Assembly: GCF_001579845.1 (NCBI RefSeq)
Contig: NZ_CP007440.1
Coordinates: 3,432,029-3,496,028 of the forward strand
Reading direction: 5' to 3'
From: Rhodoplanes sp. Z2-YC6860
Lineage (GTDB): Bacteria > Pseudomonadota > Alphaproteobacteria > Rhizobiales > Xanthobacteraceae
DNA: 64,000 nt
In this document: in pieces, positions 49,802-64,000 of the stretch
Numbering within the stretch: position 1 is the first letter of the stretch
Layout: the number at the start of each line of letters is the position of its first letter
Notes under the pieces: model-generated
Told to the model about the DNA's origin: nothing
The model's input: the letters and a program-made list of their open reading frames with translations, nothing else
The model's database searches: none
Translations under genes and position numbers: made by a program

Positions 49802-50542
49802 TCAATCAAGCCGCGCGTAGATGTCGCCGGAGTTTGCTGCGTGCGGCAGCGCTTCAAGCCAGCGCGCAATGTCGGTGGCGTTGCGCCATTCGCCAAGCTC
49901 CTGGCTTTCGCCAAGCGCTGCGTTGAAGCGCATGTAGCCAAGCGCCGCGCAGCGATCGATGCAGGCTTTGGCGACGTCGCGCTGGATTGTCGTGAACTCG
50001 AACGACAAGGCTGTCACCGGTTGCGTCAGCCCTTCCAGAGCTTCCGCCTCGAAGCCTTCGACGTCGATCTTGATGAAGGCGGGACGCCCGTGCGCGGCGA
50101 TCAAGGCGTCGAGCGTCGTCATCGGCACCACGATCGACTTGCCCCAGCGTTGGCCCTCCCAGCCGGCCGCGCCGTCGGCGGCTTTGACGAACGCATCCGA
50201 CGCCGTCGTCACGGTAGGGTTGTCGATGTTGACCTGCAGGGTGATCTCGCCCGCGGCGCGGCCGACAGCCTTGCGCTCGATCGCGACCAATCTGTCGCGG
50301 CCGTAGATCGCGCTGAGCGTCAGCGCGAGTGCCGGCTGTGGCTCGACTGCGACGACCTTCGCGCCAAGCCTGCGGAACGCGCCGACGCGATCCCCGACAT
50401 GCGCGCCGACATCGAACACCAGATCGCCGGAGCGCACGAACGCGCCATAGAGTTGATCCATCGCGGTGTGGCGCTCGCGGTGGCCGTAGTAGACCCGGAG
50501 CGATCGCAATACGGCGCGCGCGGTGCGAAGCGTCTCGAACAT
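49802..50542 (-). CDS. FkbM-family SAM-dependent methyltransferase
   Basis: A 246-residue methyltransferase. LVFDVGAHVGDRVGAFRRLG (motif I), VVAVEPQPALA (motif II), and FIKIDVEGFEAEALEGL (the FkbM signature) are clear. FkbM enzymes O-methylate sugars or polyketides. The gene starts 4 bases after the OpgH stop, so it is in the same operon and may methylate the glucan or another envelope sugar. Confidence 0.9.
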   Translation of the reverse strand: MFETLRTARAVLRSLRVYYGHRERHTAMDQLYGAFVRSGDLVFDVGAHVGDRVGAFRRLGAKVVAVEPQPALALTLSAIYGRDRLVAIERKAVGRAAGEITLQVNIDNPTVTTASDAFVKAADGAAGWEGQRWGKSIVVPMTTLDALIAAHGRPAFIKIDVEGFEAEALEGLTQPVTALSFEFTTIQRDVAKACIDRCAALGYMRFNAALGESQELGEWRNATDIARWLEALPHAANSGDIYARLD

Positions 50543-50546
50543 CGGA

Positions 50547-52319
50547 TCAGGCCGCGCGCGCCGTGGCTTTGTCGAGGGCCGGCAAGGCGAGCGCCGTCAG
50601 GGCCTCGGGCGGTGCGGTCTCCTCGGGCAGGCGCCCGATACCGAGCCGCGTCAGCCATCGTCCGACCGACGGCCAGGCGCTGATCACGGCCATGGGAACG
50701 GCGAGGGCAGGGCCCGCGGCGAGCAGGAGCGCATATGGAATGGCGCTCGGATGCGTCGCGCAAAGGAGGGCGACGATGCCGAAGCCGAGCACCGCGTGCG
50801 GCCAGAGCTGCTTGAACGCTTCGGCCCACGACACGGTGTGGTCCTCGCGCACCTGTCCGGCCCAGCCGATGGAGCGGCCGAAACCGAGGATGCCGATCAT
50901 GAACAGCGTGTGGCAGAACCACATCATCGGCAGGATCAGAATATAGAACAGCGTCATCACGGCGATGCCGGCGATAAAGCGCGGCGCGCCGCCGAATGCC
51001 TGCCGCAGTTCCGGCCGCAGCAGCACGTCGATCTCGGTGGCAAAGTGCGGTGCGAACCACATCACGAAGGTCAGCGCCATCAGGGCATGGCCGGCGCCGA
51101 AATGCATGAAGTCGGCGGTGGTGGGCGCAACCGCGGCGTCGATCGCGCCGAACACCAGCATGCCGATCCAGGCCGGCGAGGCGAGGAACATCAGCATCGC
51201 GAAAAACAGCTGAAACCGGCTGACCGCCTTCAAACCCGGCATCTTGATGAACGGCCAGTATTGCAGGTTGCCCTGACACCAGCGCTGATCGCGGCGGAGA
51301 AACTCGATCAAGGTCGGCGGGTTCTGCTCCCAGCCGAGGTCTTCCTCCGGCAGCACGCGCACGTCGTAACCCGCGCGGCGCATGAAGGCTGCCTCGATCT
51401 GGTCATGGCTCAGCACATGACCGTCGAGCACGCCGTCGCCCGGCAGCACCGGGATGCGGCAATGCGCGACGAACGGCGCGATACGGATGACGGCGTTGTG
51501 GCCCCAATAAGGACCGCAGTCGGCCTGCCACCACGCCGCGCCGATGGTCCAGGAGCGCATGCCGAGCCGCATGCCGAATTGAAAGAGCCGCGCGAAGGCG
51601 CTGGTCGAGGGCAGGCCGACGACAAGCCCCTGCAATATGCCAAGCTTCGGATCGGCCTGGATGATGCGCACGAGGCGCAGGATCGCGGCAGCGGTCATGA
51701 AGCTGTCGGTGTCGAGCGTCACGGCGAACTCGTGCTTGTCGCCCCAACGCTCGCAGAAGTCCCAGAAGTTGCCGGCCTTGAAGCCGGTGTTCGCGTCACG
51801 CCGGCGGTAGGTCACTGCGATGCGATGCTTCCAGCGCTCGGCGAGCACGGCGAAGCCCGCGTCCTCCTGCGTTGCAATATCGGGCAGGCTCGTGTCGCTC
51901 AGCACATAAAGGTGAAAGCTTTCGCCGGCGCCCGCATTGGCGATCTCGCGCAGCATGGCGTCGAGATTGCGGATAACGCGATCCGGCGGTTCGTTGCGCA
52001 CGAACATGCAGATCGCAGTCGAGGCCGTGATCGGTTCGTCCCCGCGGATGCGCGCCACGGCCGGAACGACCACCGCGATGGGATCACGCGCAAAGCGCAT
52101 GATGCAGAAGCCGATGACGGCGTCCCAGAAGCCGATCACGGTCCAGGGCAGCGTCAGCCCGAAGAAGATCAGCACCAGCGCGTCGAGGACGCCAAAGCCG
52201 CCAGCGGACAGCGCGTACGCCGCCAGGGTCAGCGTGCCGACGATGGTGCCGACGACCAGCAGCGCGAACAGCATCCGCCGCGCGGTCAGTTCCCATTCGG
52301 AGCCGCGGCTGCCGTCCAC
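50547..52319 (-). CDS. opgH: Glucan biosynthesis glucosyltransferase H (OpgH/MdoH)
   Basis: A 590-residue inner-membrane glucosyltransferase of family GT2 with GTG start. TM segments flank the catalytic domain: N-terminal pair (about 15-70) and a group from ~390. Motifs: LDTDSFM (UDP-glucose/metal), GHNAVIR, EEDLGWEQNPP, and RRDQRWCQGNLQYW, the processive QxxRW-like motif with Trp-Cys-Gln. It makes osmoregulated periplasmic glucans. It is shorter than the E. coli protein of 847 residues, as in other alphaproteobacteria. opgG is usually nearby but is absent here. Confidence 0.93.
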   Translation of the reverse strand: MDGSRGSEWELTARRMLFALLVVGTIVGTLTLAAYALSAGGFGVLDALVLIFFGLTLPWTVIGFWDAVIGFCIMRFARDPIAVVVPAVARIRGDEPITASTAICMFVRNEPPDRVIRNLDAMLREIANAGAGESFHLYVLSDTSLPDIATQEDAGFAVLAERWKHRIAVTYRRRDANTGFKAGNFWDFCERWGDKHEFAVTLDTDSFMTAAAILRLVRIIQADPKLGILQGLVVGLPSTSAFARLFQFGMRLGMRSWTIGAAWWQADCGPYWGHNAVIRIAPFVAHCRIPVLPGDGVLDGHVLSHDQIEAAFMRRAGYDVRVLPEEDLGWEQNPPTLIEFLRRDQRWCQGNLQYWPFIKMPGLKAVSRFQLFFAMLMFLASPAWIGMLVFGAIDAAVAPTTADFMHFGAGHALMALTFVMWFAPHFATEIDVLLRPELRQAFGGAPRFIAGIAVMTLFYILILPMMWFCHTLFMIGILGFGRSIGWAGQVREDHTVSWAEAFKQLWPHAVLGFGIVALLCATHPSAIPYALLLAAGPALAVPMAVISAWPSVGRWLTRLGIGRLPEETAPPEALTALALPALDKATARAA

Positions 52320-52456
52320 AGCTTTCAGTTCGAGATCCGACAGACCCGCCCCCTAAAAATCGTCCTTATCTCCGAGCGTCTTGCAGGGTATAGCGGGCAG
52401 TTGGGTTCCGGTCCAACGGCGAAGTCCGGTTCGCGTCGCAGGTTCGGGAGGGGGGA

Positions 52457-53440
52457 GTGTCGGGGCAGGAGGAAATCGCGGAGGCGCTCTGGTACGTGGG
52501 GCCGGGGCGCGCCGAGATTCGCGAAGAGCGGCTCAAGCCGCTGACGGATGGCAAAGTACGGGTCCGGGCGCTCTATAGTGCGCTCAGCCGTGGCACTGAG
52601 GCGTTGATCGCTGCGGGCCGGGTGCCGGTCAGCGAGTACCAGCGGATGCGCGGGCCGTTCATGGCGGGCAATTTCCCGTTCCCGGTGAAATACGGCTACC
52701 AGACCGTCGGCAGGGTCGAGGCCGGGCCCGACGATCTGATCGGCCGCAACGTGTTCGTGCTGTATCCGCATCAGACGCGTTTTGATGTGCCGGCTGATGC
52801 GGTGGTGCCGGTGCCGCAAGAGATTCCACTGTCGCGTGCCGTGATGGCTGCCAACATGGAAACGGCGCTGAACGCCACCTGGGATGCCTCGCCGGGGCCT
52901 TACGGCCGGATCGCCGTGGTCGGTGGCGGTGTCGTCGGCGCTCTGGTCGCTTTCATCTGCGCCCGCATCGACGGCGCCGAGGTCACATTGATCGACATCG
53001 ATCGTTCGCGCGAGGAACTGGCTGCGTCGTTGGGGGTGGCCTTTGCAACACCGGACGCCGCGCCAACCGAATGCGACTACGTGTTCCACACCAGCGCCAG
53101 CGCCGAGGGGCTGACCACGGCGCTCAATATCGCGGCCGAGGAAGCGACCATCATCGAATTGAGTTGGTATGGCTCCGGTATCGTCGCGGTGCCGCTGGGC
53201 GGCGCGTTCCACAGCCGGCGGCTTCGGCTCATCTCCAGCCAGGTCGGCAAGGTTGCGCCCTCGCACCGCGCCACCTACAGCTACCGGGAGCGGCTCGAGG
53301 CTGCGATCACGCTCACCGCACACCCGCATCTCGACGCGTTGCTCACGCCTGCGGTCTCCTTCCGCGAGCTTCCAACGGCGCTTCCCGATATTCTTAAGGC
53401 CCGAAGCGGCGTACTCTGCCAGCTCATCAGCTATTCGTAA
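52457..53440 (+). CDS. Zn-type alcohol-dehydrogenase-like oxidoreductase (cluster gene 1)
   Basis: A 327-residue medium-chain dehydrogenase/reductase with a GTG start after GGGAGGGGGGA. PVKYGYQTVGRVE and GRNVFVLYPH form the GroES-like part, and VVGGGVVGALVAF with IDIDRSREELA is the NAD(P) fold. No Cys-rich structural-zinc loop is present, so it is a zinc-poor subtype. The protein resembles Rhizobiales homologues placed with PTPS, GT and methyltransferase genes. The gene is divergent from opgH (137 bases). The next gene follows after 9 bases, so it heads the operon. Confidence 0.88.
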   Translation: MSGQEEIAEALWYVGPGRAEIREERLKPLTDGKVRVRALYSALSRGTEALIAAGRVPVSEYQRMRGPFMAGNFPFPVKYGYQTVGRVEAGPDDLIGRNVFVLYPHQTRFDVPADAVVPVPQEIPLSRAVMAANMETALNATWDASPGPYGRIAVVGGGVVGALVAFICARIDGAEVTLIDIDRSREELAASLGVAFATPDAAPTECDYVFHTSASAEGLTTALNIAAEEATIIELSWYGSGIVAVPLGGAFHSRRLRLISSQVGKVAPSHRATYSYRERLEAAITLTAHPHLDALLTPAVSFRELPTALPDILKARSGVLCQLISYS

Positions 53441-53449
53441 GAGGTGTCT

Positions 53450-53851
53450 GTGTTCACAGTTGAAGTCCGCGATCACATCATGATCGCCCATTCGTTCCGC
53501 GGCGCGGTGTTCGGCCCGGCGCAGGCGTTGCACGGCGCGACCTTCGTGGTCGATGCCGCCTTCATCGCCGACACGCTCGATGCAAACAGCATCGTCATCG
53601 ACATCGGCCGGGCGCATGAGGTGCTGAAGGCCACGTTGGGCCCGCTGAACTACAAAAACCTCGATGACGTGCCGGAGTTCAAGGGCAAGAACACCACGAC
53701 CGAGTTCCTGACCAAGCACATCTACGATCAGCTCGCGAAAGCCGCCCGCGGCGATGGGCTCGGCCGTCCGGGCCGTGAGCTCAAAGCGATCCGCATCACC
53801 ATCTCGGAGTCGCATGTGGCCCGCGCATCGTACGAGGCGCCGTTGTGGTGA
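53450..53851 (+). CDS. QueD/6-pyruvoyl-tetrahydropterin-synthase-like protein with altered active site (cluster gene 2)
   Basis: A 133-residue T-fold protein of the PTPS/QueD family. Family features: IAHSFRG (His14), ALHGATFVVD (His28), IDIGRAHEVLK and ITISESHVARASYE (Glu). In QueD the zinc site has His plus a HGH motif, and a catalytic Cys in the loop before LHG. Here HGH reads HGA and the Cys position is Ala, so classical activity is unlikely as read. The GTG at 53450 after AGAGG is chosen; an in-frame GTG at 53444 adds two residues. It overlaps the glycosyltransferase gene. Confidence 0.85.
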   Translation: MFTVEVRDHIMIAHSFRGAVFGPAQALHGATFVVDAAFIADTLDANSIVIDIGRAHEVLKATLGPLNYKNLDDVPEFKGKNTTTEFLTKHIYDQLAKAARGDGLGRPGRELKAIRITISESHVARASYEAPLW

Positions 53852-54897
53852 ACCGCGTCGCGTTCGCGGTGCCCGGTGATCTTGCGACACCGACCGGCGG
53901 CTACGCCTACGATCGCCGCATCATCGCTGAGCTGCAGAGGATGGGCTGGCAGGTCGATGTGGTGAATCTCGGCGAAGGCTTTCCGCGGCCGACCTGGGAA
54001 ACCAAGGCCGCGGCAAAGCGCAAGCTCGCTGAAGTGCCCAAAGGATGTCCGATCGTGATCGACGGGCTCGCCTTTGGCGTCATGGACGAGGCCGCGCGCG
54101 AATTGCGCGATCGCAATCCGTTGATTGCGCTGGTGCATCATCCGCTGGCGCTGGAGACCGGCTTGAAGCCCGAGGAAGCGCGCGACCTCAAGGGCACCGA
54201 ACGCGAAGCGCTGTCACACGTTCGCTGGGTGGTGGTGACGAGCCCATCGACCGCGACCATGCTGGTCGACAGCTACGACGTGGATGCCGACCGCATCACC
54301 GCGGCATGTCCCGGCACCGACCGCGCCCCGGCCGCGACCGGCAGCAAGGACGGCACCCTGCGACTTCTTTCAATCGGTGCGGTCGTGCCGCGCAAGGGCT
54401 TCGACATTCTGGTGGCCGCGCTCGCAAGCCTGAAGGATTTGCGCTGGCATCTCACCATCGCCGGCGATCGCACCCGCGATCCGGCTGCGGCCGCGGCGCT
54501 GGACGCGGCGATCGATGAGCACGGCCTTGGCGGGCGCATCGACGTGCTCGGCGCGCTGCCGCCCGACCGCATCGAGGCGCTCTACGCGGGAGCGGACATA
54601 TTCGTGCTCGCCTCGCATTTCGAAGGCTACGGTATGGCCTTTGCCGAAGCACTGGCGCATGGCCTGCCGGTGATTGGCACCACCGGCGGCGCGATCCCCG
54701 ACACGGTGCCGCCCGGCGCCGGCATCCTGGTCGAGCCGAAGGACGTCAAGGCGCTGTCGCGCGCGCTGCGCATGCTGATCGCCAATCCAACCGAGCGGAA
54801 GTGGCTCGCCAATGGTGCGCGCACGGCGGCGCAAGAACTGCCGACCTGGCGCGATTCCGCGAAGCTCGTCGCCAAGGCCATCGAGGCGGCCGTATGA
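53845..54897 (+). CDS. GT4-family glycosyltransferase (cluster gene 3)
   Basis: A 350-residue GT-B enzyme. The N-terminal acceptor domain starts RVAFAVPGDLATPTGGYAYDRR; the C-terminal donor domain has GAVVPRKGFDILVAAL and the EGYGMAFAEALAHGLPVIGT motif (retaining GT4 E-x7-E). GTG start at 53845 or 53848; the latter makes a GTGA overlap with the QueD-like stop. The donor sugar nucleotide cannot be told from sequence. It would glycosylate the cluster's product. Confidence 0.9.
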   Translation: MVNRVAFAVPGDLATPTGGYAYDRRIIAELQRMGWQVDVVNLGEGFPRPTWETKAAAKRKLAEVPKGCPIVIDGLAFGVMDEAARELRDRNPLIALVHHPLALETGLKPEEARDLKGTEREALSHVRWVVVTSPSTATMLVDSYDVDADRITAACPGTDRAPAATGSKDGTLRLLSIGAVVPRKGFDILVAALASLKDLRWHLTIAGDRTRDPAAAAALDAAIDEHGLGGRIDVLGALPPDRIEALYAGADIFVLASHFEGYGMAFAEALAHGLPVIGTTGGAIPDTVPPGAGILVEPKDVKALSRALRMLIANPTERKWLANGARTAAQELPTWRDSAKLVAKAIEAAV

Positions 54898-55697
54898 GCT
54901 TCAGCGCATCCTGGCTTGAGCTTCGCGAGCCGCACGACCGCCGTGCCCGCAACGCAGCAGTGCTCGACGCAGTGGTCAAGGCCTTCGCAGATCGTTCTTC
55001 GGTTGCGATCACCGATCTCGCCTGCGGCACCGGTTCGACCTTGCGTGCGCTGTCGCCACGGCTCAAGGCGCGGCAGAACTGGCGGCTCGCCGACAACGAC
55101 CTGAGCCTGCTCGCCCGCACGCCGGAGTCGCGGCCGCCCGGCCTCATGGTCAGCACAACGCCGGTCGATCTCGAGCGCGATCTCGAGGCTGCGCTCGATG
55201 GCCCAGCCGATCTCGTCACCACTTCGGCGCTGCTCGATCTCGTGTCCGACGCCTGGCTCAATCGGCTTGCGGTCGAAGTCGCGGCGCGACGGCTGCCGGT
55301 CTATGCGGCATTGAGCTATGACGGGCGTGTCGACATGACGCCGTCCGATCCCGGCGACGGTGCGATCGTTGCCGCCGTCAATCAGCATCAGCGCACCGAT
55401 AAAGGCTTCGGTCCGGCGCTCGGCCCTGACGCCGCGAAGCTTGCGCCGCAGCGCTTCGAGCGCGTCGGTTATGCGGTGGTGCAGGGCGCCTCGGATTGGG
55501 TGTTCGGGCCGAACGATCGAGAGATCCAGCTCGAGACTCTAACCGGCTGGGCCACCGCAGCGCGCGAGATGGGCACCGTGCCGTTGCCCGAGGTGGTGTC
55601 CTGGCTCACCCGCCGCCGCGATCTTGTCGCCGCAGGCCGCTCCACGATCCGGGTCGGTCACATCGATTTGTTCGCGAGGCCGACCGGCTCGCGCTGA
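54894..55697 (+). CDS. SAM-dependent methyltransferase (cluster gene 4)
   Basis: A 267-residue class I methyltransferase: ITDLACGTGSTLRAL is motif I, and NWRLADNDLSLLA is the next strand. Downstream residues (AALSYDGRVDM, GVRGHID-like end) are cluster-specific. It overlaps the glycosyltransferase gene by ATGA, so translation is coupled. Its 3' end overlaps the convergent RibD-like gene by 40 bases. The acceptor (sugar or ring) is unknown. Confidence 0.88.
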   Translation: MSFSASWLELREPHDRRARNAAVLDAVVKAFADRSSVAITDLACGTGSTLRALSPRLKARQNWRLADNDLSLLARTPESRPPGLMVSTTPVDLERDLEAALDGPADLVTTSALLDLVSDAWLNRLAVEVAARRLPVYAALSYDGRVDMTPSDPGDGAIVAAVNQHQRTDKGFGPALGPDAAKLAPQRFERVGYAVVQGASDWVFGPNDREIQLETLTGWATAAREMGTVPLPEVVSWLTRRRDLVAAGRSTIRVGHIDLFARPTGSR

Positions 55698-56428
55698 GCG
55701 GAAAGATCGCAGTCGAACAGCACGTCGTCGCCGAGCCGGTGCAGCTTCATCGGTGTCAGCACGGCCTCGTCGACGCGTTCGATCGGCGGCAACGCAAAGC
55801 TCGCGCGGCCGGAGCCCAAGATGATCGGCGCCACCATGACGTGGAGCCGGTCGAGGCATTTCGCGGCCAGAAATCGCGAGATGGTGTTGGCGCCGCCTTC
55901 AATCAGCACGCGACGGAACCCGCGCTCGGCGAGTGCCGCCAGGATCGCCGAAGGCGCGATCTCGCCGCCGGCGCGGGGCAGGGGGACCACTTCGATGTCG
56001 GCAGGCAGCGGCGGCTTGGCGCCGGGGCCCGCCAGCACCAGCCGCCGGACGCCGTCGGCCGCGAGCAGTTTTGCGCCTGACGGCAGGCGCCCGCGGGCAT
56101 CGATCACGACCCGCGCCGGCTGCGGACCAGCCACGCGCCTTACGGTGAGCTGCGGATTGTCGGCGAGCGCCGTGCCGATGCCGATGACCACCGCATCGAC
56201 CAGCGCGCGCAGGCGGTGGAGGTGCGCCAGTGCCTCCGGTCCGTTGATATAGTGAGAATGGCCGGTTTCGGTCGCGATCCGCCCGTCCAAGGACTGGCCG
56301 ATCTGGGCGACCACGACCATATCGTCAATCTTGCTGCGGCGCAGCGGACCGAACAGCGCCTCCCAGGGAGCCGGCAAGGGTCCGTCGGTGACGCGAAACG
56401 CATCCGGAACGCCGGACCAGGAATCCAT
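55658..56428 (-). CDS. RibD C-terminal-type reductase (cluster gene 5)
   Basis: A 256-residue RibD_C/dihydrofolate-reductase-like protein lacking the N-terminal deaminase. Motifs: VAQIGQSLDGRIATETGHSHYING, LRALVDAVVIGIGTALADNP and RVLIEGGANTISRFLA are those of the pyrimidinone-phosphate reductase that in riboflavin synthesis reduces the ribosyl side chain with NADPH. It is the only minus-strand gene in the cluster, tail-to-tail with the methyltransferase. Confidence 0.92.
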   Translation of the reverse strand: MDSWSGVPDAFRVTDGPLPAPWEALFGPLRRSKIDDMVVVAQIGQSLDGRIATETGHSHYINGPEALAHLHRLRALVDAVVIGIGTALADNPQLTVRRVAGPQPARVVIDARGRLPSGAKLLAADGVRRLVLAGPGAKPPLPADIEVVPLPRAGGEIAPSAILAALAERGFRRVLIEGGANTISRFLAAKCLDRLHVMVAPIILGSGRASFALPPIERVDEAVLTPMKLHRLGDDVLFDCDLSAQREPVGLANKSM

Positions 56429-56468
56429 CGATCTGCTTGCCTTAATTCATCATTTTCGGCGTTATTCG

Positions 56469-56538
56469 TCCGACCCCCTCTTGGGTCGGACCGGCCAAAG
56501 GTTTACCAAAGCCAGGACATCACCAAAGCCAAGACATC
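56469..56538. promoter_or_regulatory. Palindrome and tandem repeat in the promoter region of RibD-like and GTP cyclohydrolase genes
   Basis: A perfect inverted repeat TCCGACCC/GGGTCGGA (56469-56490) is followed by a 17-base unit (ACCAAAGCCAGGACATC) repeated directly with one change (56505-56521 and 56522-56538). They lie in the 220-base divergent gap and could be regulator sites. I do not see the conserved features of an FMN riboswitch. Confidence 0.5.
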
Positions 56539-56648
56539 AAGGGACTGACCTTGTCATAATGGTTCCACAATATGACGGGGAATGGCCACGCTATACCCAG
56601 GGTTATTAGTCGGGGGCGTGGTGGTGCGCCAAGGAGTGAATTTTCAGA

Positions 56649-57809
56649 ATGCGGGACGATAACGGGGCGACCGCCGGTTCGATTCTGTTTGGAACGCGTG
56701 CGCAAGTTGGAGTTGGACGAGGGCTGGCGGAGTTCCGGGCTGGGCGTCCGATCGTCGTGAACAGCAGCGGCGAGGCTTTGCTTTGCTTGCCGGTTGAAGG
56801 GCTGGACAAGAGCAGGCTCACCGCGTTCCGCGCGCTGTGCGCGCCGATCGTCCCACGCTTGGTGCTCACCGGTTTCCGCGCCCGATCGCTCGGCATCGAC
56901 ACCGACGAGCCGGTGGCGCTCGAGATGATGGACGATGTCGATGCCAATCAAATCCTGACGCTGTCTGCCGAAGCCGTGTCCAATCACGCCTTCCTGCCGG
57001 AACCCGCGGGCAAGGCCGCTGGTGCCGCGATCGAATTGGTCAAGCTCGCCCAGATTCTTCCGGCGGTGCTGGTTGCCGACACCACGGTCGGGGCACTCGC
57101 CTCGCACAATCCGCCCGTTGTCACGGTGGAAGCCAACGTGGTTGCACGCTTCCGCGCCGAGGCGACGCAGTCGCTCACGATCGCCGGTGAAGCCCATGTG
57201 CCATTGAACTCGGGCGTGCGCACCCGCTTCGTGGTGTTCCGCGACCTGCTCGGCGACGACTCCGTCGCGGTGATCGTCGGCACGCCGGACTTGTCCAAGC
57301 CGGTGCCGGTGCGCCTGCATTCGGCTTGCCTCACCGGCGACGTGTTCGGCTCCAGGCGCTGCGACTGCGGCGACCAGCTCAAGCTTGCGCTGGCGCGGCT
57401 GCAGGAGGCTGGCGGCGGCGTGATCCTCTATCTGGCCCAGGAGGGCCGTGGGCTCGGTCTCGCCAACAAGATGAGGACCTATAAGCTGCAGGACGCCGGT
57501 CTCGACACCGTCGACGCCAACACCACGCTCGGCTTCGACGATGACGAGCGCGACTATGGCGTTGCGGTGCGGATGTTGCAGATGCTGGGCTGCACCCGCA
57601 TCGTGCTGATGACCAACAACCCTGCCAAGCTCGATGGCCTGTCCAAGGCTGGCATTGAGATTACCGACCGCATGCCGATCGAGACGCCCATCAATTCCGA
57701 CAACCGCCGCTACCTCGCCGCCAAGGCGGTGCGCGCCGGCCATCAGCTCGGACATGTCATCGCCTCGCTGAACGAAACGTCCGAGAGCGACGAGCCGGTC
57801 GGGTCGTAA
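56649..57809 (+). CDS. GTP cyclohydrolase II-type protein with N-terminal extension (cluster gene 6)
   Basis: A 386-residue protein. The C-terminal ~200 residues are RibA: CLTGDVFGSRRCDCG gives the three zinc Cys ligands, YLAQEGRGLGLANKMRTY is the catalytic EGRG region, and TNNPAKLDGLSKAGIE is the closing motif. The first ~185 residues (FRAGRPIVVNSSGEALL...) look like a degenerate RibB-type domain without clear catalytic residues. GCH II opens GTP to the diaminopyrimidinone of riboflavin synthesis. AGGAG lies 13 bases before the ATG. The creatininase-like gene follows after 8 bases. Confidence 0.92.
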   Translation: MRDDNGATAGSILFGTRAQVGVGRGLAEFRAGRPIVVNSSGEALLCLPVEGLDKSRLTAFRALCAPIVPRLVLTGFRARSLGIDTDEPVALEMMDDVDANQILTLSAEAVSNHAFLPEPAGKAAGAAIELVKLAQILPAVLVADTTVGALASHNPPVVTVEANVVARFRAEATQSLTIAGEAHVPLNSGVRTRFVVFRDLLGDDSVAVIVGTPDLSKPVPVRLHSACLTGDVFGSRRCDCGDQLKLALARLQEAGGGVILYLAQEGRGLGLANKMRTYKLQDAGLDTVDANTTLGFDDDERDYGVAVRMLQMLGCTRIVLMTNNPAKLDGLSKAGIEITDRMPIETPINSDNRRYLAAKAVRAGHQLGHVIASLNETSESDEPVGS

Positions 57810-57817
57810 GCCCGCCG

Positions 57818-58594
57818 ATGGCTGCAGGCAGGCGAGCGCTCGGACATCTGACCTTCCAGGAGGTCCGCTCCTCGCTGCGCGAGACCTCGATCCTGTGCCT
57901 GCCGATGGGGTCGATGGAGCAGCACGGCCCGCATCTGCCGCTCAACACCGACAGCGTGCTGGCCGAGGCCCTCACAGGAAAGATTGTCGAGCGCTGGGGC
58001 GAGACCCTCGACCTCTGGCAATTGCCGGTGGTCAGCGCCGGCCTTTCGCGCGAGCACGATTGGGCGCCAGGCACGCTGTCGCTGTCGATCTCGGGCATGA
58101 CGGCCTATCTGCGCGATCTCGGCCGAGAGATCGCGCGCTCGCTGCCGACCCGAAACCTGTTGATCGTCAACGGCCATGGCGGCAACCGCGGCATCCTCGA
58201 AGCGCTCGGCCGCGAATTCCGCGCCGACTTCGGGCTCAACGTCGGCACGTTGCATCTCGGCGCCCTGATCAGCCCTGTGACCGATGCGGCGGTGCCGGAG
58301 ATTCACGCCGGTCGCGACGAGACGTCGGCGATGCTGGCGCTGGCGCCCGAACTCGTCCGCAAGGAGCGTCTCGCCGACACCAGGGGCCCGTCCAGCGGCG
58401 CCGCCATCCACGCGCTGGTGCTCGATCCGGCCACGAGCTGGCCGTGGTCGAGCGACGACAAGCGGATCGCGGAGCAGGGCGTTATTGGCGATGCCCGCGA
58501 CGCATCGGTCGAGCATGGCCAAGCGATCGTTTCGCGCGTGGTCGATGTGGCCGGCGCGGTGCTGCGGCAGCTTCGTGAGAACCGGAAGGCCTGA
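57818..58594 (+). CDS. Creatininase-family (ArfB/MftE-like) amidohydrolase (cluster gene 7)
   Basis: A 258-residue creatininase-superfamily enzyme. The metal ligands are in PMGSMEQHGPHLPLNTD (Glu, His, Asp), LIVNGHGGNRG (His) and EIHAGRDETSAML (Glu/His). Relatives are creatinine amidohydrolase, mycofactocin MftE and archaeal ArfB, which deformylates the GTP-derived formamidopyrimidine in F420/riboflavin synthesis. Next to GTP cyclohydrolase, an ArfB-like role on the ring-opened pyrimidine is attractive, but this is inference. Confidence 0.88.
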   Translation: MAAGRRALGHLTFQEVRSSLRETSILCLPMGSMEQHGPHLPLNTDSVLAEALTGKIVERWGETLDLWQLPVVSAGLSREHDWAPGTLSLSISGMTAYLRDLGREIARSLPTRNLLIVNGHGGNRGILEALGREFRADFGLNVGTLHLGALISPVTDAAVPEIHAGRDETSAMLALAPELVRKERLADTRGPSSGAAIHALVLDPATSWPWSSDDKRIAEQGVIGDARDASVEHGQAIVSRVVDVAGAVLRQLRENRKA

Positions 58595-58836: not shown

Positions 58837-60246
58837 GTGGTGCGTATGCTGGGTCAGGGTCACCCTGCCGCGGAAAAGTTGCGTGCCTACCTCCGGCAGC
58901 TGAAACCCGGAGCGCGGGCCCGTTTGATTGCCGAGCTCGAGCGCGGGGTGCTGCACGGCTCGAGCCCTCAGGGCGCCGACATGGTGCTTGCCGAGCTCCG
59001 CAGGAGCTTGCGGGAGGGCAGCGTCCGCATCACCCGTTTCGACGACAATGCGCGGCTGTTCTTTCATCCGCTCGAGCCTTTCCTGGTCGATGACGGGCCG
59101 GATCACGGGCATCGCGGCCGCATCGCGCGCTCCACGCTCGAGCCCATGTGGCTGTGGATCAACAACACGCTGATGCCCGAGGACGCGCGAGCCTATGCGC
59201 TCCTGGTCGACGATGCGATGCTGGCCGGCAACTTCGGCCGCGCCGAACAGGCGGCGCATGAGTTTCAAGACCGCGTGCTGCGACGCGTCCGAGAGGTGCT
59301 CGCCACCGCAACCGACCGTGATCGCGGACGTCTCAGCGTCGAGCTCGGGACCTCGCGCGCGGCCGATGACATCAAGACGTTGAGTGAAATCCTGAGCGGC
59401 CGCGATGCACTGGCCAAGCTCGGCCAGGAGCTGCCGGGCTACATCGGCACGTTCGGCGGGCCGGTGGCGGATAGCGTCCGGTCGCAGCTCGATGAAACGA
59501 TCGGAAACCGGGATCATCTCTTCATCTATGCGCTGCTGATCTCGCTGACGCGGCTGGCCGCGCCCTGGCAGCTGATCCGGCTCGCCACCAAAGTGGCCGG
59601 CGGTGACGACGCCAAGCGCATCGCTGAGACGCCTTATGCCGTGACGGTCGACATCGTGCTTGAGGAGATCGACCGCCGCGTCCGCGAACTGGCCGGCGAT
59701 CTCAAGAGTGGCCGCGGCATTGCCGTGTCGGCCCTGCTCAAGGAAATCCACGATTCCCTGCGCGGGCTCCGTTCCGAGCTCGATCTGTCTGGTGATTCAA
59801 ACTGGAGCCGGCAGCTCGCGACGTTGCACACCGATATCGCCAGGCTTCTCTCCAGCGAAATCGAGCTGATGCCCGGCCGGGTGCGGCGGCTGGTGCGGCC
59901 GCGCCCGTCGAAGGAAATCGGGGCCAACTCAAGACTCGATCCGCATGAGGTCGACGAGACCCAGGCGCTGATCGTGTTCGTATTGACCTGCCGGAAATAC
60001 GCCAGCCAGCTCGCCATCAACGAGGTGACGCAGCGAAGCTTCAACGAATTGCAGCACCTGCTCGACAGCGGCACGCGCGCGCTGCTCGATGCGCTGCGCG
60101 TGGCGCCCGTCCATGAGCGGACGTTTCGCCTATCGCAGATCGATGCCGCGGTGCGCTTCTGCGGCAAGGTGTTCGGCCAGGAATACGCCTCGCTGCTCGC
60201 GAAGGCAGCCGAAGTGGCGTCTCACGCCGAACGCAAAAGCGCCTGA
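58837..60246 (+). CDS. Conserved hypothetical protein
   Basis: A 469-residue soluble protein that I cannot place. The start GTG 58837 is followed by an in-frame ATG at 58846 (MLGQGHP). It is rich in Arg, Leu, Ala with many helices (AAEKLRAYLRQLKPGARARL; LAPWQLIRLATKVAGG near 250) and a mixed C-terminus (VFVLTCRKYASQLAINEV near 385). No signal peptide, TM or catalytic motif is clear. The 242 bases before it, after the cluster's last gene, hold no other gene and are AT-richer. Related proteins of this length occur in Bradyrhizobium-like genomes as far as I recall. Confidence 0.75.
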   Translation: MVRMLGQGHPAAEKLRAYLRQLKPGARARLIAELERGVLHGSSPQGADMVLAELRRSLREGSVRITRFDDNARLFFHPLEPFLVDDGPDHGHRGRIARSTLEPMWLWINNTLMPEDARAYALLVDDAMLAGNFGRAEQAAHEFQDRVLRRVREVLATATDRDRGRLSVELGTSRAADDIKTLSEILSGRDALAKLGQELPGYIGTFGGPVADSVRSQLDETIGNRDHLFIYALLISLTRLAAPWQLIRLATKVAGGDDAKRIAETPYAVTVDIVLEEIDRRVRELAGDLKSGRGIAVSALLKEIHDSLRGLRSELDLSGDSNWSRQLATLHTDIARLLSSEIELMPGRVRRLVRPRPSKEIGANSRLDPHEVDETQALIVFVLTCRKYASQLAINEVTQRSFNELQHLLDSGTRALLDALRVAPVHERTFRLSQIDAAVRFCGKVFGQEYASLLAKAAEVASHAERKSA

Positions 60247-60648: not shown

Positions 60649-61755
60649 ATGACACTCTGGTTTGTGATGGCGTTGATGACGGCCGCCGCGATTTTCGCGG
60701 TGTTGTGGCCATTGTCGCGGAACAGGCCGCTTGCCTCGGGCAGCGACGTGGCGGTCTATCGCGACCAGCTCGACGAGATCGGGCGCGACCGCGCCGCGGG
60801 TCTGATCGGGGAGGCCGAAGCGGAGGCGGCGCGGATCGAGGTGTCGCGCCGGCTGCTCGCGGCGGCGGATGCGCCGGCGGCGGCGCCGGCCGTGGCGAGT
60901 TCGAAGCGCCGCCGGGCGGTCGCGGTCGTCGCGTTGGTTCTGCTGCCACTCGGAGCCGCGGGTCTTTATCTGACGCTGGGCTCGCCGGAACTGCCGGGGC
61001 AACCGCTCGCGGCGCGGCGCGAAGCGCCAGGGCAACAGTCGATTCCCGAACTCGTCGCCCGGATCGAAGCGCATCTCGAACAGAACCCGGAGGACGGCCG
61101 CGGCTGGGAGGTGGTCGGGCCGGTTTATATGCGAATGGGCCGTTACGACGACGCGGTGACGGCGCGGCGCAATGCGCTGAAGTTTCTTGGATCGAGCCCG
61201 CAGCGCGAGGCCGATCTCGGCGAAGCGTTGACCGCCGCCGCCAATGGTGTCGTCACCGCCGAAGCGAAAGCAGCGTTCGATCGCGCGCTGAAACTCGACG
61301 CCGACGATTTCCGCGGGCGCTATTTTGCGGGGCTTGCCGCCGAGCAGGACGGCCGGCCGAAAGACGCCGCCGAGATCTGGCGCAAGCTTCTGGCCAGCGC
61401 GCCGCCGGGTTCCGGATGGGCGGGTTTCGTGCGCGAGTCGCTGGTGCGTGTTGATCCATCTGCCGCGACCGCGGCGCCTGGGCCAAACGCGGCGGATGTG
61501 GCTGCGGCTGGCGAGATGTCGCCCGAGCAGCGCGAGACCATGATCCGCGGTATGGTCACGCGGCTGTCGGAGCGTTTGAAGCAGGACGGTTCCGACGTTG
61601 ACGGCTGGTTGCGCCTGGTGCGCGCCTATACGGTGCTTGGCGAAAAGGATCAGGCGCGGGCCTCTGCGGACGATGCGCGCCGCGCGCTCAACGGCAATGA
61701 CGATGGGCTCCGCCACTTGGATGAGTTGATCAAGGAACTGGGGCTCGAAGGCTGA
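60649..61755 (+). CDS. ccmI: Cytochrome c maturation protein CcmI (CycH)
   Basis: A 368-residue inner-membrane protein: TM1 about 3-20, a cytosolic Arg/Glu-rich loop with [20 protein letters not shown] (typical of CcmI), TM2 about 88-108, then a TPR-like periplasmic part ([28 protein letters not shown]). CcmI brings apocytochrome c to the heme lyase CcmF/H. The next gene, ccmE, starts one base after the stop. The same order is found in Bradyrhizobium. Confidence 0.93.
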
Positions 61756-61756
61756 T

Positions 61757-62206
61757 ATGACGCGCAAGCAACGGCGCCTTGTTCTGATCGGCGGCAGTCT
61801 CGGCGTGCTGGCGCTGGCGGCCGGCCTGGTGCTGTCTGCGCTGAAGGACTCCATCGTGTTCTTCAACTCGCCGAGCGACGTCGTGGAAAAGCACATCCAG
61901 CCCGGCAGCCGCATTCGCCTCGGCGGGCTGGTCAAGCCGGGTTCGCTCCAGCGCGGCGATCAGCTCGCGGTGCGCTTCGAGGTCACCGACGGCAACAATG
62001 CGATGCGGGTGAACTACCAGGGCATCCTGCCGGACCTGTTTCGCGAAGGGCAGGGCGTGATCGCCGAAGGCACGCTCGAACCCGGCAATATGCTCAAGGC
62101 GGATTCCGTGCTCGCCAAGCACGATGAGAAGTACATGCCGAAGGAAGTGGCCGACGCGCTGAAGAAGCAGGGCCACTGGCAGGAAGATTACGGGAAGAAG
62201 AAATGA
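61757..62206 (+). CDS. ccmE: Heme chaperone CcmE
   Basis: A 149-residue heme chaperone: N-terminal TM (about 9-29), an OB-fold ([48 protein letters not shown]), and [14 protein letters not shown], where His covalently binds heme and the Tyr is its axial ligand. It passes heme to CcmF. Its stop overlaps the ccmF start (ATGA). Confidence 0.96.
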
Positions 62207-64000
62207 TCGCAGAGTTCGGTCACTACGCGCTGGTGCTGGCGCTGGGTCTCGCTCTGATCCAATCGATCGTGCCGATGCTCGGCGCAAGATTTCGCGACGA
62301 CACGCTGATGGGTGTGGCCACTCCCGCCGCGCTCGCCCAGTTTGCTTTCGTCGCCGCATCGTTTGCGGCGCTGACCGCCTGTTATGTCGGCTCGGACTTC
62401 TCGGTCAGCAATGTGTTCGAGAATTCGCATTCGGCGATGCCGCTCATCTATAAATTCACTAGCGTGTGGGGGAACCACGAGGGCTCGATGCTGCTCTGGG
62501 TCCTGATCCTCGCGTTGTTCGGCGCGCTGGTGGCGGCGTTCGGGAGAAACCTGCCGGCGACGCTGAAGGCCACGGTGCTGGCGGTGCAGTCCTGGATCGC
62601 GGCGGCGTTCTATCTGTTCATCCTGGTCACCTCGAATCCGTTCCTGCGGTTGCCGCAGGCTCCGTTCGAAGGGCGCGATCTCAATCCGATCCTGCAGGAC
62701 TTCGGCCTCGCGGTGCATCCGCCGTTTCTCTATCTCGGCTATGTCGGCTTCTCGATTTCGTTCTCGTTTGCGGTCGCGGCGCTCATTGAGGGGCGCATCG
62801 ACGCGGCTTGGGCACGCTGGGTGCGGCCGTGGACTCTCGCGGCCTGGATGTTCCTCACCGTCGGCATCGCGATGGGCTCGTACTGGGCCTATTACGAGCT
62901 CGGCTGGGGCGGCTTCTGGTTCTGGGATCCGGTTGAGAACGCCTCGTTGATGCCGTGGCTTGCCGGGACCGCGCTGCTGCACTCCGCCGTGGTGATGGAG
63001 AAGCGCAACGCGCTGAAGGTCTGGACCATTCTTCTGTCGATCCTGGCGTTCTCGCTGTCGCTGATCGGCACGTTCCTGGTCCGCTCCGGCGTGCTCACCT
63101 CTGTGCACAGCTTCGCCAGCGATCCCACGCGCGGCGTGTTCATCCTCGGCATTCTGGTGCTGTTCATCGGCGGCAGCCTCGCGCTCTACGCCTGGCGGGC
63201 GCCGATGCTGAAGCAGGGCGGGCTGTTCGCGCCGATCTCGCGCGAGGGCGCGCTGGTGCTCAACAACCTGCTGCTGACTGCGGCCTGCGCCACGGTGTTC
63301 TTCGGCACGCTTTATCCTTTGGCGCTCGAGGCTTTTAACGGCGAGAAGATCTCGGTCGGGGCGCCGTTCTTCAATCTGACCTTCGGGCCGATTTTCATTC
63401 TGCTGATTCTGGTGTTGCCGCTCGGGCCGCTGCTGCCGTGGAAACGTGCGGATCTGCTCGGCGTCGGGCAGCGGCTGATGGGCGCGGCGGCACTCGCGCT
63501 CATCGGTATTGCCGCGACCTTTGCGGCGACCTCCGGCGGGCCGGTGCTGGCGCCGTTCGGCATCGGATTGGCGGTGTTTGCCATGGCCGGCGCGCTGACC
63601 GATCTCGTCGAGCGCATGAGCCTGTTCAAGTCGCCGCTTGCCACATCGATCGCTCGGGCGAGGGGCCTGCCGCGCTCGGCCTTCGGCACCGCGCTGGCGC
63701 ACTTCGGCCTCGGGGTTTCTCTCCTGGGCATCGTCTGCGCCTCGACCTGGGGCACCGAGCGCATCATGTCGATGAAACCCGGCGCGGGCGTTTCGATCAG
63801 CTCCTACGATCTGACGTATGAAGGCACGCGGATGCGGCAGGGCGCGAACTATCGCGAGCTCACCGCGAAGTTCACAGTGCGGCAAGGCGGCTCGGCGATC
63901 GCCACGATGGAGCCTTCCAAGCGCAGCTTTGGCACGCGGCAGATGACAACCACCGAGGCTGCGCTGCTCACGCGCGGTTTCAGCCAGCTCTATCTGTCGC
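62203..64000 (+). CDS. ccmF: Cytochrome c heme lyase subunit CcmF (truncated by window end)
   Basis: The first 599 residues of CcmF; the 3' end lies past the window. Multi-pass membrane protein with the WWD-type heme-handling motif [18 protein letters not shown] near residue 235, preceded by the conserved [13 protein letters not shown] (about 173) and followed by [15 protein letters not shown] (about 290), whose His residues bind heme. It ligates heme to apocytochromes such as the peroxidase at 19694. The start overlaps ccmE by ATGA. Confidence 0.96.

Follow-up and report, generated by a model that had tools for sequence, protein, structure and literature searches.

The 64,000-nucleotide stretch of the Rhodoplanes sp. 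Z2-YC6860 genome analysed here (hereafter the window) carries a gene cluster centered on PTPS-IV, a divergent PTPS-fold protein, together with a stand-alone RibD_C reductase, a GTP cyclohydrolase II (GCH II) and several tailoring enzymes. We give about an even chance to the view that PTPS-IV clusters are a widespread biosynthetic system, represented here by one example, that draws ring-opened GTP away from riboflavin. The gene set appears to convert the starting material of vitamin B2 into a decorated compound, whose probable destination is the cell membrane. In our best reading GTP would be turned into a pyrimidine or pteridine that bears sugar and methyl groups and is transferred to the membrane or periplasm, where it may have a redox function. 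The cluster would be a branch of GTP/riboflavin-precursor metabolism, common in the family of the host and also found in beta- and gammaproteobacteria and in Actinobacteria.

A conserved gene set around a divergent PTPS-fold protein

The first-pass annotation had described seven genes in close succession at positions 52457-58594 of the window, and all seven open reading frames (ORFs) were found there. By ORF coordinates, the order is an MDR-family, BchC-like dehydrogenase (MDR; 52457..53440, + strand; sub-threshold ADH_zinc_N and BchC matches), PTPS-IV with the residues HS..FGPAQ..HGAT (53444..53851, +; PF01242, 75.9 bits), a GT4 glycosyltransferase (53845..54897, +; PF00534, 109 bits), a class I S-adenosylmethionine (SAM)-dependent methyltransferase (MT; 54894..55697, +), a stand-alone RibD_C reductase with no deaminase domain (55658..56428, − strand; PF01872, 147 bits), GCH II with an N-terminal RibB-fold domain (56649..57809, +; PF00925, 187 bits) and a creatininase-family hydrolase that may act on the formamide of ring-opened GTP (57818..58594, +; PF02633, 186 bits). 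The Pfam scores of PTPS-IV, GT4, RibD_C, GCH II and the creatininase-family hydrolase all exceed the Pfam cut-offs. The close spacing was borne out: MDR and PTPS-IV are separated by 3 bases, PTPS-IV and GT4 overlap by 7 bases, GT4 and MT overlap by 4 bases, and 8 bases lie between GCH II and the creatininase-family gene. The strands, however, had gone unmentioned. Because RibD_C lies on the − strand, the stretch is not one operon; the ends of MT and RibD_C overlap by 40 bases in convergent orientation, and the starts of RibD_C and GCH II diverge with 220 bases between them (56429..56648). The gene list was also incomplete, as it left out a MdoH/OpgH-like GT2 membrane glucosyltransferase divergent from MDR (50547..52319, −; NF003958, NF003962) and an accessory FkbM-family methyltransferase (49802..50542, −; PF05050 59 bits, TIGR01444 84 bits) upstream. 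Putative promoters likely lie in the interval from which the MdoH-like gene and MDR diverge (52320..52456).

A PTPS scan of named genomes was performed, and the window proteins were mapped onto the best 80 of the 489 encoding stretches; as these 80 loci were chosen by PTPS closeness, their PTPS identities are biased upward. Conservation was counted in 92 loci with full flanks, taken from 57 contigs of the named genomes, 13 plasmids and 22 sampled genomes. Loci were dropped if they lacked PTPS or if its flanks were shorter than 3.5 kb on the upstream side or 5 kb on the downstream side, the window itself was left out, and overlap between the genome sets was not removed. Counts refer to a match within 9 kb of PTPS unless stated as adjacent. 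MDR was found near PTPS in 89 of the 92 loci, GT4 in 88, MT in 79, RibD_C in 78, MdoH in 67, GCH II in 57, the creatininase-family gene and FkbM in 28 each, cytochrome b561 in 26, CDP-alcohol phosphatidyltransferase in 14 and LPG-synthase-TM in 12. All of MDR, PTPS, GT4, MT and RibD_C were close together in 65 loci. MDR directly preceded PTPS on the same strand in 89/92 loci, GT4 followed PTPS in 84/92, and RibD_C lay on the opposite strand to PTPS in 75 of its 78 loci.

Many Hyphomicrobiales loci share the gene order of the window, and the core can still be recognised in other groups. Reyranella-type loci have no GCH II nearby and some lack MT, whereas neither RibD_C nor GCH II is nearby in the Roseibium loci. 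In betaproteobacterial loci (Alcaligenaceae, Burkholderiaceae and contigs labelled Polynucleobacter), a MT homologue with 33-38% identity lies on the other strand, past MdoH and an ABC exporter gene. PTPS-IV was found in 20 of 72,556 plasmid records, and the plasmid carriers are Methylosinus, Rhizobium, Agrobacterium, Palleronia, Thiodictyon (a gammaproteobacterium), Streptomyces and Microbacterium. Alpha-, beta- and gammaproteobacteria as well as Actinobacteria carry the set, so that Hyphomicrobiales, the search range proposed in the first-pass annotation, was too narrow. Because the arrangement recurs in distant lineages it is not due to chance, and the earlier suggestion of a dedicated gene set, conserved beyond close strains, held up.

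Some loci depart from this pattern. In four of them (L011, L012, L017 and L117), three of which are from named Bradyrhizobium, GT4 is found on the upstream side of the dehydrogenase gene, and neither MT nor MdoH was matched within the stretch examined. The locus of Methylosinus trichosporium OB3b (L088) has RibD_C, but GCH II was not found within the stretch examined. An inositol-monophosphatase-like gene stands beside the core in L128 and L093 (Palleronia); L093 also has a PfkB kinase gene, and GT4 was not found nearby in L128.

The patchy spread of PTPS-IV (27/398 genomes in an even sample of the phylum of the host), the plasmid copies and the Streptomyces carriers would suit a specialised metabolite better than a cofactor, for instance a toxoflavin-like azapteridine or a glycosylated antibiotic of the nucleoside type, and the synthesis of toxoflavin also begins with GCH II, RibD and a methyltransferase. 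We nevertheless consider this explanation improbable: PTPS-IV showed a median identity to the window protein of 55% (maximum 83%) in 20 sampled loci, it was present in 56/100 genomes of the host's family, and the cluster is accompanied by membrane-attachment genes and cytochrome b561. Within the sampled loci, the identity of PTPS-IV exceeded that of GT4 in 19/19 cases but that of MDR in only 15/20.

Passages of a 2017 network paper (PMC5445326) describe PTPS-IV as cluster-node 62, a group of 561 sequences (COG0720/IPR007115) with a typical FGPAQ motif and with PF00925 and PF01872 neighbours. The window protein has the motif and both neighbours. It is 58% identical to its relative from Rhizobium and 61% identical to that from Methylosinus, with a range of 44-83% across 17 compared rows. 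The 18 PTPS-IV rows share 25 invariant columns, among them E122, whose position we take to be that of the pterin-anchoring Glu of PTPS/QueD. PTPS and QueD use a zinc-binding His triad and a catalytic Asp-His pair. In all 18 PTPS-IV rows HGA replaces HGH, which removes the third zinc His, and no Cys precedes the motif; the His of the Asp-His pair is Tyr in 18/18 rows, and the Asp is mostly Asn, being kept in L090. FGPAQ is present in 17 of the 18 rows and reads FGSAQ in L098. These replacements had been missed in the first pass. The closest solved structure is SCO6650 from Streptomyces coelicolor (PDB 3d7j, E 1.6e-43), a protein that reportedly contains no zinc, has no PTPS activity and is of unknown function.

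Other PTPS identities were tried. For the known classes, passages of PMC5041015 give the motifs CxxxHGH (PTPS-I/QueD), CxxxxxHGH (PTPS-II, tetrahydrobiopterin) and ExxHGH (PTPS-III, folate). PTPS-I/QueD was rejected by the replaced catalytic residues and by a QueD model score of 36.1 bits against a cut-off of 89, and PTPS-II and PTPS-III were rejected by HGA in all 18 rows. The host has a separate PTPS-family protein with CGRLHGH, encoded beside a QueE-like ORF. Plasmid records label PTPS-IV as 6-carboxytetrahydropterin synthase of queuosine synthesis; the PTPS superfamily is heavily misannotated, and the residues of PTPS-IV argue against this label. PTPS-IV has also been assigned to F420, on grounds given as unpublished in the passages of PMC5041015. 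F420 synthesis was rejected for the host, whose genome gave no CofD match. CofD was matched in 19/56 PTPS-IV genomes compared with 7/44 others, and 37 of the 56 had none.

Co-occurrence with GCH II and the RibD_C reductase

The best PDB sequence matches of the window RibD_C were 6p8c and 2azn, which are pyrimidinone-phosphate or uracil-type reductases; a weak DHFR match (1cz3, E 0.001) was also obtained. A bifunctional RibD was rejected, as RibD_C alone was matched and TIGR00326 scored 107 bits against 156, over the C-terminal part only. The window-type RibD_C separates from housekeeping RibD, with a best score per genome of at least 156 bits and other scores of at most 89 bits. Among 100 genomes of the host's family, 44 carry it and 43 of these also have PTPS-IV; 13 genomes have PTPS-IV only, 1 has RibD_C only and 43 have neither (p 2e-15). 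In the RibD_C-only genome (G470), GCH II, RibD_C, cytochrome b561, MT and GT4 run into a contig end (L152). GCH II relatives of the window protein, counted at E <= 1e-20, were found in 41 of the 100 genomes, giving 36 with both GCH II and PTPS-IV, 20 with PTPS-IV only, 5 with GCH II only and 39 with neither (p 5e-8). PTPS-IV and GCH II were at most 10 kb apart in 31 of the 36 genomes with both. GCH II without PTPS-IV occurred in three genomes of one other genus and in G433. At the level of 47 genera, to which the tests take account of kinship and no further, the corresponding counts were 23/7/0/17 for RibD_C (p 2e-7) and 20/10/2/15 for GCH II (p 6e-4). One genus has three genomes (G435, G466 and G486) with the cluster in two pieces, MdoH-MDR-PTPS-GT4-MT at one place and GCH II-RibD_C-cytochrome b561 at a second. 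The link to GTP proposed earlier is supported, as GCH II and RibD_C co-occur and are not parted by this splitting of the cluster.

The same data were weighed against a route in which GCH I supplies the ring as dihydroneopterin triphosphate and the product is a glycosylated tetrahydropterin of the limipterin or cyanopterin type. PTPS-IV and the dehydrogenase would then shape the side chain, GT4 would add the sugar, RibD_C would serve as dihydropterin reductase and GCH II would be a hitch-hiker. Such a route agrees with the retained PTPS fold and Glu122, the position of GT4 next to PTPS-IV, the membership of RibD_C in the DHFR-like superfamily and the lack of GCH II in part of the PTPS-IV genomes, but it conflicts with the replaced catalytic residues of PTPS-IV, with the pyrimidinone-phosphate reductases as best solved relatives of RibD_C, and with the tie of GCH II to RibD_C. 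We regard it as unlikely.

The window GCH II keeps the zinc ligands Cys54/65/67 as well as Tyr105, Asp126 and Arg128 (numbered as in E. coli), as expected of a GCH II. One half of its model (pLDDT 87.8) matched E. coli GCH II (2bz0) in Foldseek with E 6e-17; RibB structures were matched more weakly (E 2.5e-5 to 3.4e-4, 12-18% identity). For an active RibB domain, no PF00926 match was obtained in this protein and the acidic motif was not seen by eye. A bifunctional RibBA was therefore rejected, the RibB part being a fold only. From the model, the protein seems to be of RibBA type, with the cyclohydrolase kept and RibB lost. Three PF00925 proteins are encoded by the host, namely the window GCH II, RibBA (G000:C1:3043252-3044343, in L146) and a weak match of 50 bits that we take to be URC1-like. 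The host RibBA has kept its RibB part and lost the GCH II zinc cysteines. The two proteins thus show complementary decay, with the loss of the RibB motif in the cluster GCH II judged by eye.

This loss in the host RibBA, together with the weakness of the only other PF00925 match, could mean that GCH II, with the creatininase-family hydrolase acting like BrbF, is the riboflavin entry of the host while the genes around it serve another purpose; according to passages of PMC9478397, Sinorhizobium needs a formamidase of the creatininase family for riboflavin. Against this, 59/100 family genomes have no close GCH II relative (57 with weaker PF00925 matches only and 2 with none, the loss of zinc cysteines in such weaker proteins having been checked for the host copy only), GCH II tracks PTPS-IV and RibD_C, and GCH II-RibD_C-cytochrome b561 forms a separate unit in one genus. 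The host also has a second RibD of bifunctional length with its own reductase domain. A role in riboflavin supply is thus distinctly unlikely, and a riboflavin-only reading was rejected on the 59 genomes and the tracking. That the cluster is not simply one for riboflavin, as proposed in the first pass, agrees as well with a ribD-ribE-ribH run elsewhere in the host (G000:C1:4362116-4364793, ribE and ribH assigned by eye). The argument then used, that ribB, ribH and ribE are not nearby, is weak since these genes need not be near; none of the three was found among ten proteins scanned around the cluster. The 59 genomes without a close relative of canonical GCH II bear on the missing 'GCH III' of BrbF-containing bacteria mentioned in passages of PMC9478397.

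The creatininase-family gene lies within 9 kb of PTPS in 28/92 loci, and 26 of these 28 have GCH II. Among the 67 cluster GCH IIs, the window protein included, the position of Tyr105 is Tyr in 64 and Met in 2, both from Streptomyces, with 1 sequence incomplete; both Met-type proteins have a creatininase-family gene nearby (2/2). The host encodes four members of the creatininase family (G000:C1 at 2548972, 810077, 7686843 and 3489873), and the other three are 28-32% identical to the window copy. The equivalogs MftE (mycofactocin), ArfB and creatininase were rejected with scores of 120/172, 25.4/180 and 87.5/235 bits, all below the cut-off; by the second of these, the label 'ArfB-like' given to the window protein was a loose one. 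By analogy, the hydrolase could be a BrbF-like formamidase, for which the same reaction is plausible.

Tailoring enzymes, membrane module and proposed pathway

The dehydrogenase scored below the cut-offs of ADH_zinc_N (24.1/31.8 bits) and BchC (42.9/291 bits). Its relatives appear in plasmid records under the name 'zinc-binding alcohol dehydrogenase'; the zinc ligands of classical alcohol dehydrogenases were not seen by eye in the window protein. The window MT itself gave no Pfam or NCBIfam match. A relative matched Methyltransf_25 with 31.7 bits (cut-off 27), and the AlphaFold model of the window MT (mean pLDDT 96.2) matched SAM methyltransferases in Foldseek, by which it is predicted to be a class I SAM methyltransferase. 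GT4 and MT are fused as one open frame in three genomes (L130, L131 and L135), of which L130 and L135 were scanned with Pfam and gave matches for each of the domains. The proposal that the glycosylation and methylation genes belong together gains support from these fusions.

The MdoH-like GT2 reached the curated NCBIfam cut-offs for MdoH/OpgH (NF003958, 502 bits versus 419; NF003962, 442 versus 328), whereas other MdoH models stayed below theirs. A host search with this protein at E <= 1e-10 found only itself. Its gene is next upstream of MDR in 65/92 loci. A CDP-alcohol phosphatidyltransferase occupies this place in 10 loci, and the flippase-like LPG-synthase-TM occurs in 12 of the 14 loci with a CDP-alcohol transferase compared with 0 of the 65 MdoH-only loci; two loci match both. 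On a poorly resolved PTPS tree the swap needs only 4-5 changes, so that each arrangement largely follows lineage. A cytochrome b561 gene (PF01292), found in 26/92 loci from alpha-, beta- and gammaproteobacteria, would be expected in ∼1.5% of 18-kb stretches, calculated from 7 PF01292 genes in the 8.19-Mb host genome. This module, as well as the cytochrome b561 of relatives, had been absent from the earlier gene set; the swap, like the association with cytochrome b561, gives a hint of the destination of the product and its possible role.

A cell-envelope glycan unit of MdoH, FkbM, GT4 and ABC exporter, with a pterin-like regulator and no single small molecule, would fit MdoH beside MDR in 65/92 loci, FkbM and ABC-type exporter matches in 28 each and sulfatase-type genes in 7. 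We judge it highly improbable, since an unrelated CDP-alcohol transferase replaces MdoH while the core stays, and the GT4-MT fusion and the co-occurrence of RibD_C point to small-molecule tailoring.

For the GTP-derived product favoured here, we infer the following order of reactions. GCH II would open GTP to 2,5-diamino-6-ribosylamino-4(3H)-pyrimidinone 5'-phosphate; with the Met-type GCH II of Streptomyces the formyl group reportedly stays, and a creatininase-type hydrolase would remove it. The stand-alone RibD_C would then reduce the ribosyl to a ribityl chain and, having no deaminase domain, would leave the 2-amino-4-oxo ring intact. PTPS-IV may bind this ring via its conserved Glu and, as the PTPS catalytic residues are replaced, would carry out an altered chemistry, perhaps a second ring closure. 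The BchC-like dehydrogenase would adjust a side-chain alcohol, and GT4 and MT would decorate the product. Finally, the MdoH-like glycosyltransferase would attach the product and move it to the membrane or periplasm, a role that the CDP-alcohol phosphatidyltransferase and the flippase-like protein would have in other lineages, and cytochrome b561 would exchange electrons there. Carried further, the product might belong to a new class of redox cofactors in bacteria, being a GTP-derived, methylated and glycosylated 2-amino-4-oxo ribityl-pyrimidine or -pteridine, membrane-anchored in phosphatidyl form or exported as MdoH glucoside, with cytochrome b561 as partner; we advance this extension tentatively and would sooner bet against it.

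Several observations weigh against this pathway. GCH II is absent from 20/56 and RibD_C from 13/56 PTPS-IV genomes, so that neither is strictly required, with the reservation that housekeeping enzymes might substitute and that part of the genomes are incomplete. No RibD_C lies near PTPS in 14/92 loci, including Streptomyces L089 and five Roseibium/Rhodobacterales loci, no MT in 13/92 and no GT4 in 4/92, and the Streptomyces plasmids L097 and L098 carry PTPS-IV without the rest of the set. A creatininase-family gene stands beside a Tyr-type GCH II in 27/64 loci; as the window GCH II itself keeps Tyr, a coupling of Met to formyl retention does not explain the creatininase-family gene of the window. 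No cytochrome b561 gene lies beside the window's own cluster, and the background for cytochrome b561 rests on one genome. Gene presence follows phylogeny, and three independent-pair tests, which were underpowered, could not reach significance (pairs changing in the same versus the opposite direction: GCH II-RibD_C, 2.3 versus 0; GCH II-creatininase, 2.4 versus 0; GCH II-cytochrome b561, 1.5 versus 0.7).

A second context of PTPS-IV was seen in L097 and L098, where it adjoins cupin, MBL-fold and MEKHLA-domain genes. At the 3' end, the cluster of the window is adjoined by an ORF of 469 aa (58837-60246, +) with no Pfam or NCBIfam match, whose family (f24) spans five compared loci, the window's own included. 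Just downstream (60649-63999, +) follows an apparent ccmI/ccmE/ccmF-like cytochrome c biogenesis run, judged by eye from the translated starts.

Comparison with known systems

The cluster had been put forward as a candidate undescribed one. Its PTPS/GCH II/RibD_C neighbourhood was in fact noticed before, in passages of PMC5445326, and the claim stands for the product: no paper naming one for this gene set was found among open-licence PMC papers. The FGPAQ motif and the PF00925/PF01872 neighbourhood are common to the window and the PTPS-IV group. The passages of that paper, however, name no dehydrogenase, GT4, methyltransferase, MdoH/CDP-alcohol transferase or cytochrome b561 partners, and they term PF00925 'GTP cyclohydrolase I ... 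FolE2', whereas its Pfam name is GTP cyclohydrolase II.

From the Streptomyces plasmid loci that carry the set (L089 and L094), the window locus differs in having MdoH where they have the CDP-alcohol transferase. In the Streptomyces coelicolor GCH II paralogue SCO6655, Met in place of Tyr is said to lead to a formyl-retaining product; the window GCH II keeps Tyr and carries an extra RibB-fold domain. The dehydrogenase resembles BchC over residues 14-240, yet lies far below its cut-off. Cyanopterin and limipterin are glycosylated pterins, and a pterin-like ring with a sugar is proposed here too, but the PTPS catalytic residues are replaced in the window protein.

BrbF, described in passages of PMC9478397 as a creatininase-family AFRPP formamidase, shares the Pfam family of the window hydrolase and is a closer functional precedent than ArfB; it belongs to clade II with SMc02977. 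The host has three further members of the family besides the window hydrolase. With the early riboflavin pathway (RibA, RibD) the cluster shares the retained GCH II residues and a reductase nearest to 6p8c and 2azn. It departs from that pathway in the missing deaminase domain and in a RibB domain that is degenerate by eye. In the archaeal and fungal order of riboflavin synthesis, the reductase acts before the deaminase.

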